Position numbers and translations under genes: made by a program. DNA of 31,873 nt from positions 10,998 to 42,870 of the IMG/VR virus record IMGVR_UViG_3300002242_000340. One strand, given 5' to 3'. Below are positions 10,527-29,597 of this stretch, piece after piece. The notes beneath the pieces are model-generated. The model did not search any database, was not told where the DNA came from, and was given only the letters and a program-made list of their open reading frames with translations. How positions within the stretch are numbered: the first letter of the stretch is position 1; the number at the start of each line of letters is the position of its first letter. This DNA comes from a virus.

Positions 10527-11318
10527 CTATGGAAAACTTTTCATCACACTACTACCTACCGAGAACAACTCAACTTCGGTAACATCATTGTTCGATAAAG
10601 TAAACTCCATATAATATCCTCTCATACCATACGATTCCGCTACAGTGTTATTGGTGAATAAAATAAAATCTCCAAGAACAGGACCAACTGGAGCTGGTGG
10701 CCCCACAGGTATTGTTTCGTTTACCGTAATTGTATTATTATTTCTGTCTATTCCCGTTATTGTTCCCGATACTACTGGTGTACCTCCTTGTACTAAAGTA
10801 TATATTACAGCTCCTATACTAACAATGTTTCCAATAGGTTGTGCTAATGTTACAACTCTTGCGGTTACTGGACCTGTAGGAGCAATACTAACTGCACCTA
10901 ATCCGTTTGCATAACGTAAAGTGAAATCCGTCACACCTTCAAGATGTCTAACATAAGCAAACCATTCTCCTTCTTTTTGTTCAAAATGTATTTCATCTAC
11001 ATCACCCTGACTTAAATCAGTTAATAAGTTAGTGCAATCCCATGCTGCATTACTTTCAAATGAAAGAGTTTTAAATAACTTAATTGATAAAGTAGGCTCT
11101 GGATTAAATACACTGGTTATAGTAGAAGGAGCAGTCGTTCCTGATACATTATAATATTCATTACGATTAGTATTAGTGTTATGTCTGTATAGGTTTCCTT
11201 TTTTAAACGTATACAAATAAGCATTCATACCTATTATAAATTCAGGTAAGAAAGAATAGAACGAAGGCCAACCGTCATTCTCTGGTTTATATGTTAAAGT
11301 ATATTGTTGTAAAGCCAT
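10527..11318 (-). CDS. tail/virion structural protein, 263 aa
   Basis: A 263-aa beta-rich protein with an N-terminal segment I regard as typical of flavobacterial podovirus tail genes (MALQQYTLTYKPENDGWPSF, then an aromatic-rich stretch containing NAYLYTFKKGNLYRHN). The centre, residues about 150-215, is Pro/Gly/Val-rich (GPVTARVVTLAQPIGNIVS) and looks like an inserted small beta domain; the end returns to beta strands (YGMRGYYMEFTLSNNDVTEV). There is no enzyme motif or membrane segment. It lies 12 bases after the repeat-containing tail protein and precedes the promoter of the cupin/ejection unit, so it closes the tail-gene block. Exact location in the virion is unknown. Confidence 0.65.
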   Translation of the reverse strand: MALQQYTLTYKPENDGWPSFYSFLPEFIIGMNAYLYTFKKGNLYRHNTNTNRNEYYNVSGTTAPSTITSVFNPEPTLSIKLFKTLSFESNAAWDCTNLLTDLSQGDVDEIHFEQKEGEWFAYVRHLEGVTDFTLRYANGLGAVSIAPTGPVTARVVTLAQPIGNIVSIGAVIYTLVQGGTPVVSGTITGIDRNNNTITVNETIPVGPPAPVGPVLGDFILFTNNTVAESYGMRGYYMEFTLSNNDVTEVELFSVGSSVMKSFP

Positions 11319-20875: not shown

Positions 20876-22348
20876 TTAGTTTTGGAATAAGAAGAAGTTG
20901 TTTGCACCTAATACACAAACTGCTCTTTCAGATAAGAAATTAACTTCCATTGCATCTAAAGAAGAAGTTCTCGCACCACCAGCAGAACCAGTAATCCAAG
21001 TTTTATATCTTCTGTCTTCAGCTTCTGAAGCTCTATATCTTACATGTAAGAATGGTCTCTTAGCGTTTTTACCAAGTATTTGGTCATAAACTGAAGTAGA
21101 ACCAGCTGGAACTAATAGTCCATTGATACCACCTGCTACTAATCCACCTCTCATAGTTGGGTCATTTAGGTATTTCCAGTCAGACTTATAAAAGTCATAA
21201 CCTCTTCTAAATCCAGAGAATCCTAAGTTAAGTGCCATCTCTTCATCATTGTCAAATAGACCGTAAGACGTACCACCTGCTCCATAAGAGTTTTGTACAG
21301 CTAACATGTCATCAATGTCAAATGAAAAGTTTCTATTTACGAAAAGAACGTTCTCTTCGATTGCACCTTGCTTGTCTAATCTTTGAATGATAGAGTCAAA
21401 GTCCGCTAATGATGTTGGGTTACCACCACCATAAACGTTTCCTCTTGCTCCTACTTCAAAGAATACACCTTTAGAACCACTTAATCCAGCAACAGAGTTA
21501 CCAGCACCAGATGCTTGTAGGTAATCACCTGCACCAGAAGCTGCTTCTGCTGGAACTGCTTCAACTAAAGCTGTTTCCATGTAGTCTTCAAATCTTAGTC
21601 TTGTGTCGTGCTCAGACTTTAGATACCATAAGTATCCGCTTACTCCGTCTTCTCCACTTACTTCAACCCAACCAATTTGAGCCATATCAGAACCTGATAC
21701 AGAATACTTATCCTTAAGGATAATTGGTTTGTTGTCGAAGAAGAAATCGTCAGCTTCTAATGAGCCTTCCATTCCTGCAGTTCCTTTTGCAAATTCAGAA
21801 CCATAAATGAAAACATCACATGCTACTGCATTCGCCATTGCTTGTCCAGCTGCTTCATAATAAGCTACTGTAAAAGTATTTGGGTTTGCATTAGTTGGTC
21901 CAGCTGTTACAATCGCTTTGTTTTGTAACGATGAACCTGGAGTGTTGTCTGAAATCATTACAGTTTGACCTACTCTAATAACGTTCTTAGCATCTCTCGC
22001 TGTGTTAGGGTTAGCTAACGCTGGATTGAAGTTAGTAATGTTATTTGGAATTGTCCAAACTGCACCTGCGTCTGTACCTGCAGCTGCTGCTGAAGTACAT
22101 CCTTTGTATTTAATGTGTAGCCTTCCTTGCTCCGCCCATTTAATAAGGTCAGAGTTAGATGGCATCTCTGCTCCTACCATTCGTAGGAACGAGCTAATGC
22201 TTCTATTACCATATCTTTCAAATTCTTTCTCGTAAGTATCTGGTAGATACTGATTCAAGAAATCAAAATCTTTGATATAATTCGTTTCAACAGGCACCTG
22301 TTGAGCCGATGGTTGTAAGTCGAAGCCTGGGCTTGGGTTTACTGGCAT
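20876..22348 (-). CDS. major capsid protein, 490 aa
   Basis: A 490-aa intact protein placed after portal and scaffold-like genes and before a strong terminator, the standard place for the major capsid protein. The N-terminus (PVNPSPGFDLQPSAQQVPVE, then TNYIKDFDFLNQYLPDTYEK) is an extended arm and helix. The rest is alternating beta strands and Gly/Ala-rich loops, with RISSF-like FERYGNRSISSFLRMVGAEM near residue 45. An Ala-rich loop lies at about 85-95 and a Gly-rich C-terminal part includes MRGGLVAGGINGLLVPAGST. Length fits an HK97-fold capsid protein with an inserted domain. The gene has an AT-rich leader (GTTTAACAAATTAAAATTAT) overlapping the end of the scaffold gene. Fold is inferred, not demonstrated. 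Confidence 0.82.
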   Translation of the reverse strand: MPVNPSPGFDLQPSAQQVPVETNYIKDFDFLNQYLPDTYEKEFERYGNRSISSFLRMVGAEMPSNSDLIKWAEQGRLHIKYKGCTSAAAAGTDAGAVWTIPNNITNFNPALANPNTARDAKNVIRVGQTVMISDNTPGSSLQNKAIVTAGPTNANPNTFTVAYYEAAGQAMANAVACDVFIYGSEFAKGTAGMEGSLEADDFFFDNKPIILKDKYSVSGSDMAQIGWVEVSGEDGVSGYLWYLKSEHDTRLRFEDYMETALVEAVPAEAASGAGDYLQASGAGNSVAGLSGSKGVFFEVGARGNVYGGGNPTSLADFDSIIQRLDKQGAIEENVLFVNRNFSFDIDDMLAVQNSYGAGGTSYGLFDNDEEMALNLGFSGFRRGYDFYKSDWKYLNDPTMRGGLVAGGINGLLVPAGSTSVYDQILGKNAKRPFLHVRYRASEAEDRRYKTWITGSAGGARTSSLDAMEVNFLSERAVCVLGANNFFLFQN

Positions 22349-22368: not shown

Positions 22369-23510
22369 TTAAACTTTTTTAATACTTCTAATTTTGAGCC
22401 CTCTACCACTTGAAGTATCGCCTACTGCTTTTATTTTCAAACTATTTTTCGTGCTAAGTTGCGGGGGCTCTACGAACATCCATATTGATATTCTTAGACT
22501 TTTTTGCTACATCATCTACTGTTGCAGCAACACCCTGCTCATAAAAGAACTGTGCAAACTTTTCTGGATTCATTGCTATTGACATAGCTTTATGGATATC
22601 CTTTGGCATCTTTCATAAGTCCATTCTCATCATTATATTTTGAGATGAAATTATTAAAATCCATTTGCTTGTTCTTCAATTCCTCAGCAGTACCTGGTTT
22701 ATAGAGAATTGATTTATCGTCACCAACGCTAAATTCAAAACCTTTGAACTCATCGCTAAACACATTATTAGTGCGTTCCTCAAAATTCTTTCTCATAAGC
22801 TGTACGCTTTCCTTCTGCGTGCTAGATTGCTCTAACATTGTCTTGTAAGCATTAAGATTGTTTTCTTGTTCATCAGATAATCCACCCCCACTTGACTCAA
22901 GAGGAACTTTATATTTATCTTTCTGTTCTTTAAAAAACTTTCTCGCTTTAGCAAGTTCTCTTTTTTTAGCTAATTTCTTTTTCTTAATATCACGCTCTTC
23001 ATCTTCTTCACTATCGTATCCGAATTTGTCGTCCATAATATCTTGAATATCTATAGCATCAAGACCTTCTTCTTGAACACTAATGTAATCAGCTAAAACA
23101 GAATCTTCGTCCATGTCATCGTAATTCTTTTGCAATTTGTAAAAGTCTTCGATACCACGGCCTGTTTCTTTCTTATAATCAAAATATAACTTAACATCTT
23201 CAGGTAAATCAGGATTTGATTCTTTCGTTTCAAATAATTCTTCAACTGAGTTGATGTCTTTATTATATCTGTCTTTAATAAAATTAAGAACATTTTCGTC
23301 ACTTAACTCTGACGAGGGAGTTTTATCTTCAATAGGTGGAGTCTCCTCTACCTTTGTTTCCTTTTCTACTGCTGATGCTTCTACCTTTTCAGGTTTCTCA
23401 TCAACTGGTTCGCTACCTTGTTGAGCATTATGCTTTTGTAACAATTGCTCTTCTATTTCGGCTTTTGATTTTTGAGTGTTGCCTTCCACTGCTTTTACTT
23501 GTATTTTCAT
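22369..23510 (-). CDS. scaffold-like head assembly protein (about 379 aa, two apparent frameshifts)
   Basis: The frame starting at 23510 stops at 22590, but another frame continues directly (HKAMSIAMNPEKFAQFFYEQ...) and after a further shift ends RGLKIRSIKKV at 22369. Removing one base from the CC at 22594-22595 and one from the C5 run at 22463-22467 gives one protein of about 379 aa. It is very acidic and charged, with a Glu/Lys/Pro-rich disordered N-terminus (EKVEASAVEKETKVEETPPI), helices with runs of Asp/Glu (YDSEEDEERDIKKKKLAKKR), and a basic C-terminal tail (KIKAVGDTSSGRGLKIRSIK). Composition, lack of Cys, the basic tail and the place just before the capsid gene are typical of scaffolding proteins. 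A TTAATTTTG-containing leader precedes it. Confidence 0.75.
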
Positions 23511-23555
23511 TAGATTAAATTTTTAACAAAATTAAACAATAATTTTAAACCTTTT

Positions 23556-24094
23556 TTAGGCGTTATTTAGGTGGTTATAAAGGTCTTGTCCCAACCTTTC
23601 ACCTATTTCTTTATCTGATTTATAATGCACTCTTGCTACTATTCTACTGTTAGAAACATGTGCTGCTACATCTGTAAATTCTTTTTTCATTTCAGGATAC
23701 ATGTCTGATAAAACCAAAGCTATCAGTTTGCTTTGAGCAGAATGTCCTGATGGAAATGCAGGTGTTTGTGCACTACTCATCTTGTGATACAATAAATCAA
23801 TACCGAATTTTTTAGCTAATTCATTTGGCCTTGGTCTATCGTGATAATTTTTTATACGCAGTATTACAGGGTTAGATTTTAGCTATTAAAGTATTTACTA
23901 AATCAGAAGGATATTTTCTTTTTCTGTTTACGAAGAGTTGTTTAAAACGCTGCTTGAATATTATCATATTTGTCAGTATAAGGAACATCCATTTTCTGAA
24001 CTTGTAATGATTTTATTTCATTTAAAGTTTTCATACTCCTTTCAGACGGGTATTTTATATGCTTGTATTTAGTGATGTTAAAGTCATCAAACAT
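23556..24094 (-). CDS. PAP2-superfamily phosphatase (about 178 aa, two apparent frameshifts)
   Basis: Three short frames join into a protein of about 178 aa when a surplus base is removed from 23944-23947 and another from 23877-23880. The join restores all three signature motifs of PAP2/class A acid phosphatases in order: KNYHDRPRP (KX6RP), PSGH, and SRIVARVHYKSD (SRX5HX3D). Family chemistry is phosphomonoester or diphosphate hydrolysis through a phosphohistidine at the SRX5H histidine. No transmembrane helix or signal peptide is visible, unlike lipid-phosphate members, so it looks like a soluble, class A acid phosphatase-type enzyme. Start at ATG 24094 lies 6 bases after the portal stop. It is embedded between portal and scaffold genes and may be virion- or assembly-associated; substrate is unknown. 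Confidence 0.85.
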
Positions 24095-24100
24095 AAAAAC

Positions 24101-26536
24101 TTATTTAGGTCCAAACTCTGCTAAATCAAAACCATCCAAAGAATCTTCGTTTGATTCAAATTTTACTGCTGGTAGATTTCTTTTTCTTTGTTCAATAAGT
24201 TTTGATTGTTGAGTGTTGGCTTGGCTAATTCTATCTGCTTTACCTTTTTCTCTTGCCTTTTCTCTGTCGTCTATTTGAGATTGCTCTATACCTTTAAGTT
24301 GCATATTGTAAGCAAACTCAGTTTCCATTAGTTGCGATTTTAACATAGCTTCATTCTTCATCTTCTCTATTTCCATTGCAATCTCAGCTTGTTTGATTTG
24401 CATTTTAGATTGAGTTTCTAATTGAATTCTTTGCTGTTCTTGTTGAGCAGCCATCATCGCTTGTTGTTGTGCCATTTCAGCCTGAGCAGCTTGCTGCATT
24501 TGCCCTTGCTGCTGTTCCATTTGAGCTTTCTTTTTACGTTTAGTTTTTAGTAATTGATTAGCTAATTTAAGATTATGTATCTCTCTAATATCTAAAGCAT
24601 CTTCTAAATTAATGTCTTGTTTAGATAAAGCCATTTGTATATTAGCTTCTAACATAGCTCTTTCTTCTTCATCAGGAGCTAACTCTAAAAATATACCAAA
24701 ACTATAAAGATATAAGTTTTTAATATCTTGAAGTAAGTTTAAATTATACTTACCTATCTGCATAGCAAACTGGTCTTTAAACTCAGAGTATTCTAAAACA
24801 TCAGCTGTTCTTAACACTATGCCTTCTGCTAATCTTCTTGTTATATATAGACTTGCGTTTAATATATGTCTTGTAGCTGTATTAGAATTTAAAGCTGCTA
24901 ATTTTTGAACACCAACTAATGCGTCTGGATTAGGAGTAGAACCATCACGAGCTTCATTTAAACCTGTTACAGTTCTTATCATATCTAAGTAATGATTGTA
25001 ATTAGCAATAAGCATTTGCATTTTTGCTCCACCACTATTAGAAGTTAATTGAGTTATAGGAACTTTAGCGTTATTGAATTCACCATCTTGAGTGAAACTT
25101 CTACCAACTACACTACCAGTTTGAAAATAAAGCCTTAGAGCATCTTCAGGACTATAAGCATTACCTGTACCCAAATCAACTTCATTAAGTCCGTCAGCAT
25201 CTATAAAAACACCATCTGGAACCATTCTGGATATTACTTGTTGTAACTTTAAATGAGTAACTTGAATTAAATCAGCAAAAGGAATCATTCTTCTAACTAA
25301 AGATTCATACATTCCTTTATATAATCTTGGAGCACAAGCTACATAATTAGGTAAAGCGTTTTGACTTGCAGCTTTTGGTCTAACCATATTTTCTGCAAGC
25401 TCCCATTTTAATAAAATGTTTGTACCCATTACCATTATTCCATCATACCATACTTCAATTTTTTTAGTAACCTTTTTAAACTTTCCTTCAGCCATCATTT
25501 CTTCAGGTGGGTTGAAACTATCATCTTTCTCAACCACTTTGAATGTACCATCAGACATTTCTTTTTTCTTATAAACAAAAGTATGAGTGGTCTTGTAGTT
25601 AAAATAAAGTAAAGTACAAGTATCTCTATAGAATAAAGAGTTCTCATAGTACTGTGCATTGTTATAATAATTATACCAAGATTGACTATATTTAGCAATC
25701 TCCTCCATATCTTCGTTAGTAATATCAGGATTTATTTTTACAAGCTCAGCCATAGGTATGGTCTTTAGCTCACCCCAATAAAAACAATCTTTAAAATAAG
25801 GGTCTTCAGTATAACTATATACTACATTAGCAGGGTCAACATAATTAAGTTCTATACCTTGTCCTGGTAAAAACTGATGTTTAGTCATACCAACACCTAT
25901 AGTCATTATATCATAATCAACTCTTTTACGAATATCTTTATAATGGTTTTGATTTAATACAGTATCAATAGCTTCTTCTGCTGCAATTTCTACAGCAGGT
26001 TTATATTTCATTTGCATGTACAATTCCAGTTCTTCATCGTTTTCTGGAAGTTCTTCTTCGTTTGTTTGAAAAACATTTAAATCAAAATCTTCTTCAATTT
26101 GTTGAAAGAGTGGTCGAGCAACCATTTCTCCTTCTATCTTTTTTTGGAATGAATCTCTTTTTTCTGCAGACATTGCGTCTTCTGCAAACGCATTAATTTT
26201 AAACAACCTATCGTTTAAACCATTTACAACTATGTCTACAAATTTAGGAATAATAGGAACAGGTGTCCAGTCTAAGTTTAAATAAGACAAATCTCCATCA
26301 ATAGCTATTTCGTTTTTATACTTCTGAACTGATTGTTCACCACGAGCATATAAACGTAATCTATTAAACTCTCCCCATTGATTTAAATATCTACAGGAAC
26401 CATTATCTTTTCTAAACCACTCGTATTGAATAGCCTGTCCTACTTGCAGTCCGTACTCTAAAGTATCCTTTTGAGCGTCAGAAGCAAACTCATCTGGAAA
26501 CGCAGCTGCTTTTAAGTTAATTTCTACTTGTTTCAT
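24101..26536 (-). CDS. portal protein, 811 aa
   Basis: An intact 811-aa protein directly after the large terminase; its ATG overlaps the TerL stop as ATGA at 26533-26536. It starts MKQVEINLKAAAFPDEFASD. The N-terminal 450 residues carry a portal-like core (helical PKFVDIVVNGLNDRLFKINA; VDPANVVYSYTEDPYFKDCF), residues about 440-640 the helical stem/crown region (LIQVTHLKLQQVISRMVPDG), and residues about 680-760 a Gln/Met/Lys-rich coiled coil (GQMQQAAQAEMAQQQAMMAA). The protein forms the dodecameric DNA entry ring and terminase docking site. About 800 aa is long for podovirus portals but usual in Bacteroidetes phages, including crAss-like ones. No frameshift in 2.4 kb. Confidence 0.85.
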   Translation of the reverse strand: MKQVEINLKAAAFPDEFASDAQKDTLEYGLQVGQAIQYEWFRKDNGSCRYLNQWGEFNRLRLYARGEQSVQKYKNEIAIDGDLSYLNLDWTPVPIIPKFVDIVVNGLNDRLFKINAFAEDAMSAEKRDSFQKKIEGEMVARPLFQQIEEDFDLNVFQTNEEELPENDEELELYMQMKYKPAVEIAAEEAIDTVLNQNHYKDIRKRVDYDIMTIGVGMTKHQFLPGQGIELNYVDPANVVYSYTEDPYFKDCFYWGELKTIPMAELVKINPDITNEDMEEIAKYSQSWYNYYNNAQYYENSLFYRDTCTLLYFNYKTTHTFVYKKKEMSDGTFKVVEKDDSFNPPEEMMAEGKFKKVTKKIEVWYDGIMVMGTNILLKWELAENMVRPKAASQNALPNYVACAPRLYKGMYESLVRRMIPFADLIQVTHLKLQQVISRMVPDGVFIDADGLNEVDLGTGNAYSPEDALRLYFQTGSVVGRSFTQDGEFNNAKVPITQLTSNSGGAKMQMLIANYNHYLDMIRTVTGLNEARDGSTPNPDALVGVQKLAALNSNTATRHILNASLYITRRLAEGIVLRTADVLEYSEFKDQFAMQIGKYNLNLLQDIKNLYLYSFGIFLELAPDEEERAMLEANIQMALSKQDINLEDALDIREIHNLKLANQLLKTKRKKKAQMEQQQGQMQQAAQAEMAQQQAMMAAQQEQQRIQLETQSKMQIKQAEIAMEIEKMKNEAMLKSQLMETEFAYNMQLKGIEQSQIDDREKAREKGKADRISQANTQQSKLIEQRKRNLPAVKFESNEDSLDGFDLAEFGPK

Positions 26537-28784
26537 TTATTAATAATTCGACTAACTTTTTCGCTGTTGTTATATCTTGCAAAGTTAATGCTAATTTTTG
26601 TTTTTTCTTTAGTCGGTGTATATAAGTGTTTTTGATTAGCCATTATAGCTAAACCAGAACTTATTGAGGCATCAAACTTAGTTCTATTACTTATATCAAA
26701 CTTAGCCCAATCCTCTAATGTTCTTTGAAAATACATGTCACCCATGTCACCCTCAATCCTATGCACGCCTTCTGAATCAATTCCTATATATTTTTCAATA
26801 TAAGATTCTATTGCAGACGCGTGTGATTGTTTAACGTCCTCTGATGTATTTGGTATACCTCCTAACTCTCTTTCTGTTTTAGAAAGTTTATTAAAAGTTT
26901 TATCAGGTCTGTTTAAACAAAACCCTCTATACCCTCTATTTTTAAAATGGTAAAGGAGTCGAGGTTTATTATTTTCACATAATATAGGCATGCCATAAAA
27001 AACACATGCCATTAATACTTCCTCAAAAAATATTTCTGCTGTTTGTGGTCGGGCTATGTATTCTAAAAGAAATGGTTACTTGGTATTTCCTCCATACTAA
27101 ATTTTGTCAAACCATGTAAAGAACCATTTGAACCTTTACCTACCACGACACCAGATATATCATAAGAGTCGCAACCAAATGTACCTAAATGTTCGTTACC
27201 AGGAAGGAATCTTCCATTCTTTCTAATAACATTATTTTGAAGTGAGCGTTTAGGTATGTAAGTTACAAAAAATCTTCCTCTTTTGTTTGGAGTCCAAACT
27301 ACCTTAGTGTCTTTTATTCCATTCTCCCAACTAAATGAACCTTGAGTTATAAAATGTTCTTTTATAATACTATCATTATAGTCTATTTGTTGATATATCT
27401 TTGTTAGATTAAATATAGATTGTTTACTTTCATCTCTAAAAGCATGTGATTCTGAACGAGGAAACTGACGGTAATATTCATTTAGAGCATCAGGGTCATG
27501 TTTTAAAGAAACAACTTCGTTTTCCCAATAGTTAACTGCTCCTTGATATATGTATTCATTATCAATACCTACCACTTCTTGCTTAGGATTTTCTAATACA
27601 GGCATTCCATATCTGTCAATAAACCCCTCCATATTCCATTCCATTGGAACAAACAAAGAATAAAGTCCACTTTTTGTTTGACCATTTGCATTTCTAACTT
27701 CGCAGTTAGAATCATTGTATAAGTTTTTAAAATTTCTACCACCTTTATCTAATGCGTTTGAAGTAGAACCCATCATACATTTACCAATAACCTTACTCCC
27801 TAATCTCAAACATGTTTTAGTGACACGCCAATTGTTTAAAATATTTTCTGGTTTCTCCCACTTACCACTTTCATCATGTATTAGTAGTTGTAGTTTTTCT
27901 CCATCATAACTATTATCAGAAGTATTTTTCCAATCTATTGTTGTATCTAATCCCTCTAATACTTCTTCTTCTACATTAAAACATTATTTTTTTTAGTAAT
28001 TCTTAGAAGCAGGAACACGATAAGCTAATTCTGTTTTTGGTTTATCCATACCATCTTGTATAGGTTTAAAAAAGAAAGGATAGTTGTTAGAAATAGGAAC
28101 TATTTTATCTGTAAACATTTTTTTCGCATCACTACCTGTTTTAGATAATATACCTATTCTGGCATTTTTAGTAATAGTACCAGTATTTACTCCTTCACAA
28201 GAACTCATAAAAGAAAAACCTGAACGCCTAATTTTTAAATAACACATTCCAAAACTTCTTTTATCTGCTTTACATGCTTCCCAGAATAAATAAAATATTC
28301 TATTAGCTTCTCTAAAATCTGGATGACCTACATCTATTTTAGTCCACTGTAAATACATATAATGAGTACCTGTGATATATGTAGACACACCATTATTCAT
28401 AAACCAAAAACCTTGTTCTCTTCTATTAAACTCTTCTTCTATATAATCTATCCATTGATTTTTAAAATTAGAAGGAGCTTCATGCCATTGAAATATAGTA
28501 GATATTCTTTTTAATACTGTAGGTATTTCTTTTACTTCCCAGTACTGTTCATCTTTTTTTTCAGAGCGTTTAAACACTGTCTTGGGTGCAGCGGGTAATG
28601 CTATTCTTAAACCAGATACATGAATGATTTCACCAATAGTTCCATCTTTTGATATAACAATTATATCATATTTTTCATTATACCCATACATCCATGTTCT
28701 TGCCTTATTTTTACGAGACAATATATTAGAAGGGACTAAACCCTTACATAAATCATAAATGTTATTTTGAGTTCCTTTCTGCAA
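26533..28784 (-). CDS. terL: terminase large subunit (about 748 aa, apparent frameshifts at two sites)
   Basis: Three frames (28784-27993, open continuation to 27063, and about 27062-26533) join into about 748 aa. Around 27975-28005, three surplus bases interrupt SKITKKNMFNVEEE; near 27065-27068 a TTTT run interrupts NHFLEYIARPQT. ATPase signals: a deviant Walker A (KIRRSGFSFMSS, about residue 205), LQLLIHDESG as Walker B with catalytic acid (about 300), and coupling motif MMGSTSN (about 340). The nuclease half has FGCDSYDISG (first metal Asp), ILCENNKPRL, and a distal acidic FDASISSGLA. The enzyme pumps DNA through the adjacent portal and cuts concatemers. The start is uncertain: only TTG at 28784 follows the previous in-frame stop, overlapping the upstream gene by 23 bases. 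Confidence 0.88.
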
Positions 28785-29037
28785 AGCCTTTAGGTAAATT
28801 ATTGGTTTTTATTTCTCTTCCATCCAGTTTATCTCTCTCTTCATCTATTCTTTTTAAAATTTCAAAAGCATCAAATATGGCAAGCTTTTTGGTAGCAGCT
28901 GCATTCTTTAATCTATCAGCTGCTAATTCATCATCGGGGTCTGGCTTAATAATCTTTTCTTTTGCCACATCTATTAATTCTTTAACTGCTTTTTCACCAG
29001 CATTTATAATTTCTAATTTAATTGCTTTTGTGTCCAT
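28762..29037 (-). CDS. candidate terminase small subunit, 91 aa
   Basis: A 91-aa, mostly helical, highly charged protein (MDTKAIKLEIINAGEKAVKE; AADRLKNAAATKKLAIFDAF). It ends KGFAERNSK. It overlaps the end of the GroES-like gene by 20 bases and the start of TerL by 23 bases. Immediate placement upstream of the large terminase, size and all-helical composition fit a TerS-type DNA-recognition protein, but no helix-turn-helix is evident, so the role is inferred only from position. An alternative is a small packaging accessory. Confidence 0.5.
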   Translation of the reverse strand: MDTKAIKLEIINAGEKAVKELIDVAKEKIIKPDPDDELAADRLKNAAATKKLAIFDAFEILKRIDEERDKLDGREIKTNNLPKGFAERNSK

Positions 29038-29597
29038 TCTTTAAAGTTATATTACTTGTATACATACGATAAAGCTTTTCATCGTCTATATTAAATTCAT
29101 ATTCACTATTAGGTTGAAATGATATTCTATCACCAGGATAAATATTTAGTTTCTCTAATTGTTTGTTGCCATATTTAAGTATACCCCACAATGGTTCTTC
29201 TTCTTCTGAAACATCTATGTATTTTTTTTCAATAGGTATAGGTTTTACAAAACAATACTTGTCATGACTATGCCACTTATTATCTTGTTTATACATATAA
29301 AATTGAAAGTCATCGACTAAAAATAAATCATCAATCAACCAACTTCTTCCACTTTTTTGCCTACCATAAATATCGTTATAATATTTAAATACATTATGAT
29401 GTACTACAAGAGTATCTCCCTTTTTAATATTTCCATTATAATTTATAGGTGTATTTATTACTGTAGCGAATCGAGTTGAAACTGTATGGTCCTCTTCTGA
29501 TGTACTGGTGAAAAACTTTTTATCACCATAATATTTTTATATTATCGTAACGCCTATCATTATAAGGTTTTACTATAAAACAAAAAGGTGATTGCAT
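29018..29597 (-). CDS. tandem GroES-like co-chaperonin (about 192 aa, one apparent frameshift)
   Basis: From ATG at 29597 the frame reads SPFCFIVKPYNDRRYDNIK and hits a stop; removing one base from the A5 run at 29534-29538 lets it continue in the frame ending at 29018. The result, about 192 aa, looks like two GroES-type beta-barrels. The first has FIVKPY near the start and IKKGDTLVVHHNVF (residues about 60-75). The second, from about 108, has CFVKPIP, WGILKYGN, IYPGDRISFQP and a DDEKLYRMYTSNITL end, closely matching the GroES C-terminal strand pattern GD-x-V-x-F...EKLYIM-x-x-SDI. The mobile loop of the second domain may be IEKKYIDVSEEEEP. The family binds GroEL to fold capsid proteins (compare T4 gp31). 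The ATG overlaps the upstream stop as TAATG. Confidence 0.65.

Follow-up and report, generated by a model that had tools for sequence, protein, structure and literature searches.

A PAP2-type phosphatase gene, predicted to encode a soluble enzyme, between the portal and scaffold-position genes of uncultured phages

Introduction

Class A acid phosphatases are secreted enzymes, and most of them work in the periplasm. Those closest to the phage protein described here, namely PhoN of Salmonella, PhoC, EB-NSAP and the P. aeruginosa acid phosphatase 7f17, share with it the same three signatures and a soluble PAP2 fold, helical throughout, that covers almost all of the predicted model. The membrane PAP2 phosphatases (PgpB, LpxE, and the BcrC named in the annotation of an Acinetobacter phage) have the motifs and the core helices in common with the phage protein, but they are membrane proteins whereas the phage protein is not. 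In the literature searched, no named report of such a phage PAP2 gene was found; an Arctic viral study mentions PAP2 without gene context (PMC9469726). PHROGs gave no convincing match for the protein and the INPHARED phages gave only weak, partial ones; the ORF of one INPHARED match (H1) was found to be a membrane-type PAP2 protein (L188). An unnamed viral protein of 176 aa in BFVD (A0A1B1IV46; 43% identity, TM 0.95) very likely belongs to the same family and has thus already been deposited without a name.

In our study, we analysed a stretch of 31,873 nucleotides (the window), corresponding to positions 10,998 to 42,870 of the IMG/VR record IMGVR_UViG_3300002242_000340, in which a first-pass annotation had proposed a PAP2-type phosphatase inside the head-gene cluster.

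Results

The PAP2 reading was found on the minus strand, from an ATG at 24094 to a stop at 23558–23556, and it passes through three successive frames (Table 1). The read-through matched Pfam PAP2 with an E value of 9.5e-10 and 38.8 bits (cut-off 27.2), and the last 78 codons (23559–23792), which are uninterrupted, passed the cut-off by themselves (E 1.7e-6); the match is therefore not due to chance and is independent of any repair. The contig L002 was assembled separately and, over 5.6 kb, differs from the window by one mismatch and a few gaps (99.9% identity); it contains the gene as an intact 178-aa frame, and dozens of distinct relatives are also intact. One-base length errors in the assembly of the window would be the simplest account of the broken frame, because L002 is intact and because the neighbouring terminase and scaffold-position genes are also frame-shifted here and open in the relatives (749 and 379 aa, respectively). 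A true pseudogene in the phage of the window is unlikely and keeps only a small residual probability, since L002 has the unbroken gene and the neighbouring genes are open in the relatives. The first-pass annotation had described the three signatures as present in order after repair of two surplus bases; two one-base length differences were confirmed, and the signatures were intact in the relatives and invariant in 16/16 aligned members.

Table 1. Positions of the PAP2 gene and of neighbouring features in the window.
Feature	Position	Strand	Remarks
Major capsid-position gene	20876..22348	-	phrog_13704, virion structural protein
Scaffold-position gene	22590..23510	-	phrog_16786 (unknown function); 306 aa here (frame-shifted), 379 aa in relatives
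TAATTTTG, -7 box (TAnnTTTG)	23527..23534	-	24 nt ahead of the ATG of the scaffold-position gene
PAP2 phosphatase gene	23556..24094	-	two one-base length differences here; 178 aa in intact relatives
Uninterrupted 3' part of the PAP2 gene	23556..23792	-	holds PSGH and SR-x5-H-x3-D; alone passes the Pfam PAP2 cut-off
Portal protein gene	24101..26536	-	phrog_6547, 4.6e-144; stop 6 nt ahead of the PAP2 start
Terminase large subunit	26533..28784	-	three pieces here; single 749-aa frame in relatives

Scans of IMG/VR yielded 56 distinct PAP2 proteins of 172–181 aa, the 172-aa member being located at a contig end. All three motifs were present in 56/56 proteins, but the same motif pattern had been used for collecting them. 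The alignment of 16 sequences contained invariant K81-x6-R88-P89, P114-S-G-H117 and S149-R150-x5-H156-x3-D160 residues (numbering of the L002 protein), and all of the 16 members scanned matched Pfam PAP2 (PF01569) at E <= 0.01. The spacings between the three signatures were 24–38 and 31 residues among the 56 proteins. These proteins were devoid of membrane spans (top 19-residue Kyte-Doolittle mean 0.88), in keeping with the earlier description of the protein as soluble, and of cysteine; nor did hydropathy, used here without a dedicated predictor, reveal a signal-peptide-like segment in any of them. Judging from a median pairwise dN/dS of 0.10 (131 pairs, which are not mutually independent), the gene is under purifying selection and is therefore no remnant. 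The reading of the locus as a degraded remnant was rejected, the relatives being intact.

The AlphaFold2 model built from the 16-sequence alignment (pLDDT 94.9, pTM 0.90) contained the core helical PAP2 fold. In Foldseek and VIA-align the class A acid phosphatases ranked first, and PhoN was aligned over 170 residues with Z 17.6, rmsd 2.7 and 20% identity, as for a PhoN-like soluble catalytic domain. The VIA-align Z scores were 16–18 for PhoN/PhoC and 15–17 for other class A enzymes, whereas they were 7–15 for the membrane PAP2 enzymes and 12–14 for the haloperoxidases; the next matches after class A were PgpB of B. subtilis (Z 14.7) and LpxE (Z 14.4). The profile search, in which PhoN matched at E 1.5e-9 and the catalytic positions lined up, agreed with this ranking, and the acid-phosphatase type suggested at first pass was thus upheld by profile and by structure. 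Compared with the class A enzymes, the phage protein is shorter (178 aa), has neither the signal-peptide-like segment nor cysteine, and is only about 20% identical. The NCBIfam PhoC equivalog gave 20.6 bits against a cut-off of 430. Since the secretion signal and the PhoC family score both fail, the phage protein is likened to the class A acid phosphatases in its working but is not filed among them. The protein is very probably a PAP2-type phosphatase, its activity being predicted.

Wherever a viral PAP2 locus had sufficiently long flanks, the genes stood in the fixed order terminase large subunit, portal, PAP2, scaffold-position gene and capsid gene. The gene thus lies between the portal and scaffold genes as first described, where the name scaffold is given by gene position only and the PHROG matched is one of unknown function. 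The same place had been called unusual; within the lineage it is normal, all viral PAP2 relatives with flanks having the gene in the same slot, although most portal relatives are without PAP2 and in them the scaffold-position gene usually begins about 40–65 nt past the portal stop. Just upstream of the terminase region, a small gene (29018–29338, minus strand) matched a GroES-like co-chaperonin (phrog_13932), and GroES is annotated at the corresponding place in the elemovirus and Panino records.

The portal stop, separated from the PAP2 start by 6 nt in the window, overlaps it as TAATG in several other clades. A TAnnTTTG element, which we take to be the -7 box of Bacteroidota promoters, was found 23–34 nt before the scaffold-position gene in 45/50 distinct upstreams against 4.5 expected from shuffles, a count that shows conservation and not independent events since the 50 upstreams are related by descent. 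The box was kept both with and without PAP2; a clear -33 element was not seen in the upstreams of the scaffold-position gene. Because the portal stop is near to or overlaps the PAP2 start and the box precedes the scaffold-position gene, PAP2 is apparently part of the terminase-portal unit, ahead of a second, predicted promoter.

The slot between portal and scaffold-position gene was found to hold other genes also. Lys/Arg-rich ORFs of 102–118 aa fill it in L018 (4070–4378), L021, L051 and L052, and a Lys/Arg-rich ORF of 95–109 aa precedes PAP2 in L135–L138, L141, L143 and L149. Many of these ORFs contained Gly-rich segments, and the three that were searched matched no named family. The slot is a small accessory site and, since these ORFs also occupy it, room is left for a virion-cargo reading.

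By all signs, the carrier phages are an uncultured group with hosts among the Bacteroidota. Their kin by portal were the Flavobacterium elemoviruses and the Maribacter phage Panino (46–48%) and, at 67%, a Manatee Spring podovirus that is uncultured; the slot was empty in these three annotated records. The first 11,100 bases of the window's record (L189) contained replication genes for a BT4734-like N-terminal/PriCT primase-type protein, a Sak annealing protein, a DnaA C-terminal-like protein and a SNF2-like helicase. When mapped onto a portal tree built with FastTree, the presence of PAP2 required at least 6 gains or losses, and the starred branches force all 6; the rows of the tree were gathered partly through PAP2 searches, so that the proportion of carriers has no meaning. 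PAP2 and portal identities were correlated (Spearman 0.74 over pairs that are not independent of each other); L014 stood clearly apart as an outlier, its PAP2 being 54–61% identical against 91–94% for the portal, i.e., PAP2 diverges faster. From this correlation and its outlier, the gene appears to be inherited vertically for the most part, apart from some exchange or rapid change. A clean empty site was found in L030, which aligns closely with L173 and L177 in the portal and scaffold-position genes but lacks the entire PAP2 frame between them; loss is the likelier direction because L030 is nested among the PAP2-bearing L173, L174 and L177 on the portal tree. A recent host origin was not supported, the best cellular matches being 27–39% identical over part of the protein (one genome scan, short patterns); of the two cellular matches with a motif-bearing ORF that was read, L101 was of the membrane type and L109 was not.

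Discussion

The explanation that we favour, with middling confidence, is a soluble PAP2 enzyme that would use small phosphomonoesters as substrates and be active in the cytoplasm during late infection. The enzyme would be a small, metal-independent histidine phosphatase with a fold nearest to the catalytic core of PhoN/PhoC. By homology, His156 would attack the phosphate and form a phosphohistidine, His117 would be the general acid, and Lys81, Arg88 and Arg150 would hold the phosphate (L002 numbering); these roles are taken from what we regard as established knowledge of the PAP2 superfamily. PAP2 would be an optional cargo gene ending the terminase-portal transcription unit, before the separate scaffold promoter, and from this placement modest amounts of the enzyme are probably produced alongside the portal, in the host cytoplasm and late in infection. 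The most likely substrates would be small phosphomonoesters, for instance nucleoside monophosphates or sugar phosphates; removal of their phosphate would change the late pool of nucleotides and phosphate. The missing signal-peptide-like segment argues against extracellular phosphate scavenging, class A enzymes being secreted, unless lysis or the virion releases the enzyme. A cytosolic role is less usual, as most class A relatives are periplasmic, and this counts against the cytosolic reading.

The phosphatase could instead be a virion component, packaged into the procapsid beside the portal and either delivered along with the DNA or freed on lysis. Its fixed position in all relatives with flanking sequence is consistent with this, as are its charge (net +3 to +17, all 56 proteins being basic, whereas the portal, scaffold and capsid proteins are acidic) and the other slot occupants, which are short and very rich in Lys/Arg and might be head proteins that bind DNA. 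A gene's position is not by itself proof of packaging, however, and the basic slot neighbours match no named family; we consider packaging possible but unlikely. Quite improbable is a further reading, in which the phosphatase would be class A-like but specific to phages and would enter the capsid while portal and scaffold assemble, the slot holding several interchangeable cargo genes of which PAP2 is one.

Equally improbable is an action on the envelope, in which a lipid-phosphate or undecaprenyl-pyrophosphate phosphatase would aid lysis or superinfection exclusion. The superfamily is common to PgpB, BcrC and LpxE, and the fold matches LpxE and PgpB of B. subtilis, but 0/56 proteins had a membrane span, as the membrane PAP2 and lipid phosphate phosphatases do, and the soluble class A enzymes match better in structure and in sequence. 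The accessory and patchy presence of the gene, together with its faster divergence than the portal, as expected of conflict genes, would fit counter-defence, i.e., destruction of a phosphorylated nucleotide signal or metabolite of a host anti-phage system; however, accessory genes usually diverge fast as well, and the gene sits in the late head region and not among the early genes, which leaves this role very doubtful. A vanadium-dependent haloperoxidase-like enzyme, despite the common fold and ligand set, is extremely improbable, as those chains are about 400–640 aa in structures, and 410 aa or more among the structural matches listed, against 178–181 aa here, and the class A phosphatases score higher.

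The gene of the soluble PAP2 phosphatase, widespread and as yet without a name (56 distinct IMG/VR proteins), extends the gene inventory of uncultured phages whose relatives infect Flavobacteriia, and its locus marks out a small cargo slot where two expression units of the head operon meet. With nucleotides or phosphosugars as substrates, the enzyme would serve phosphorus handling in late infection, and if it is packaged, it would be a rare case of a virion phosphatase.
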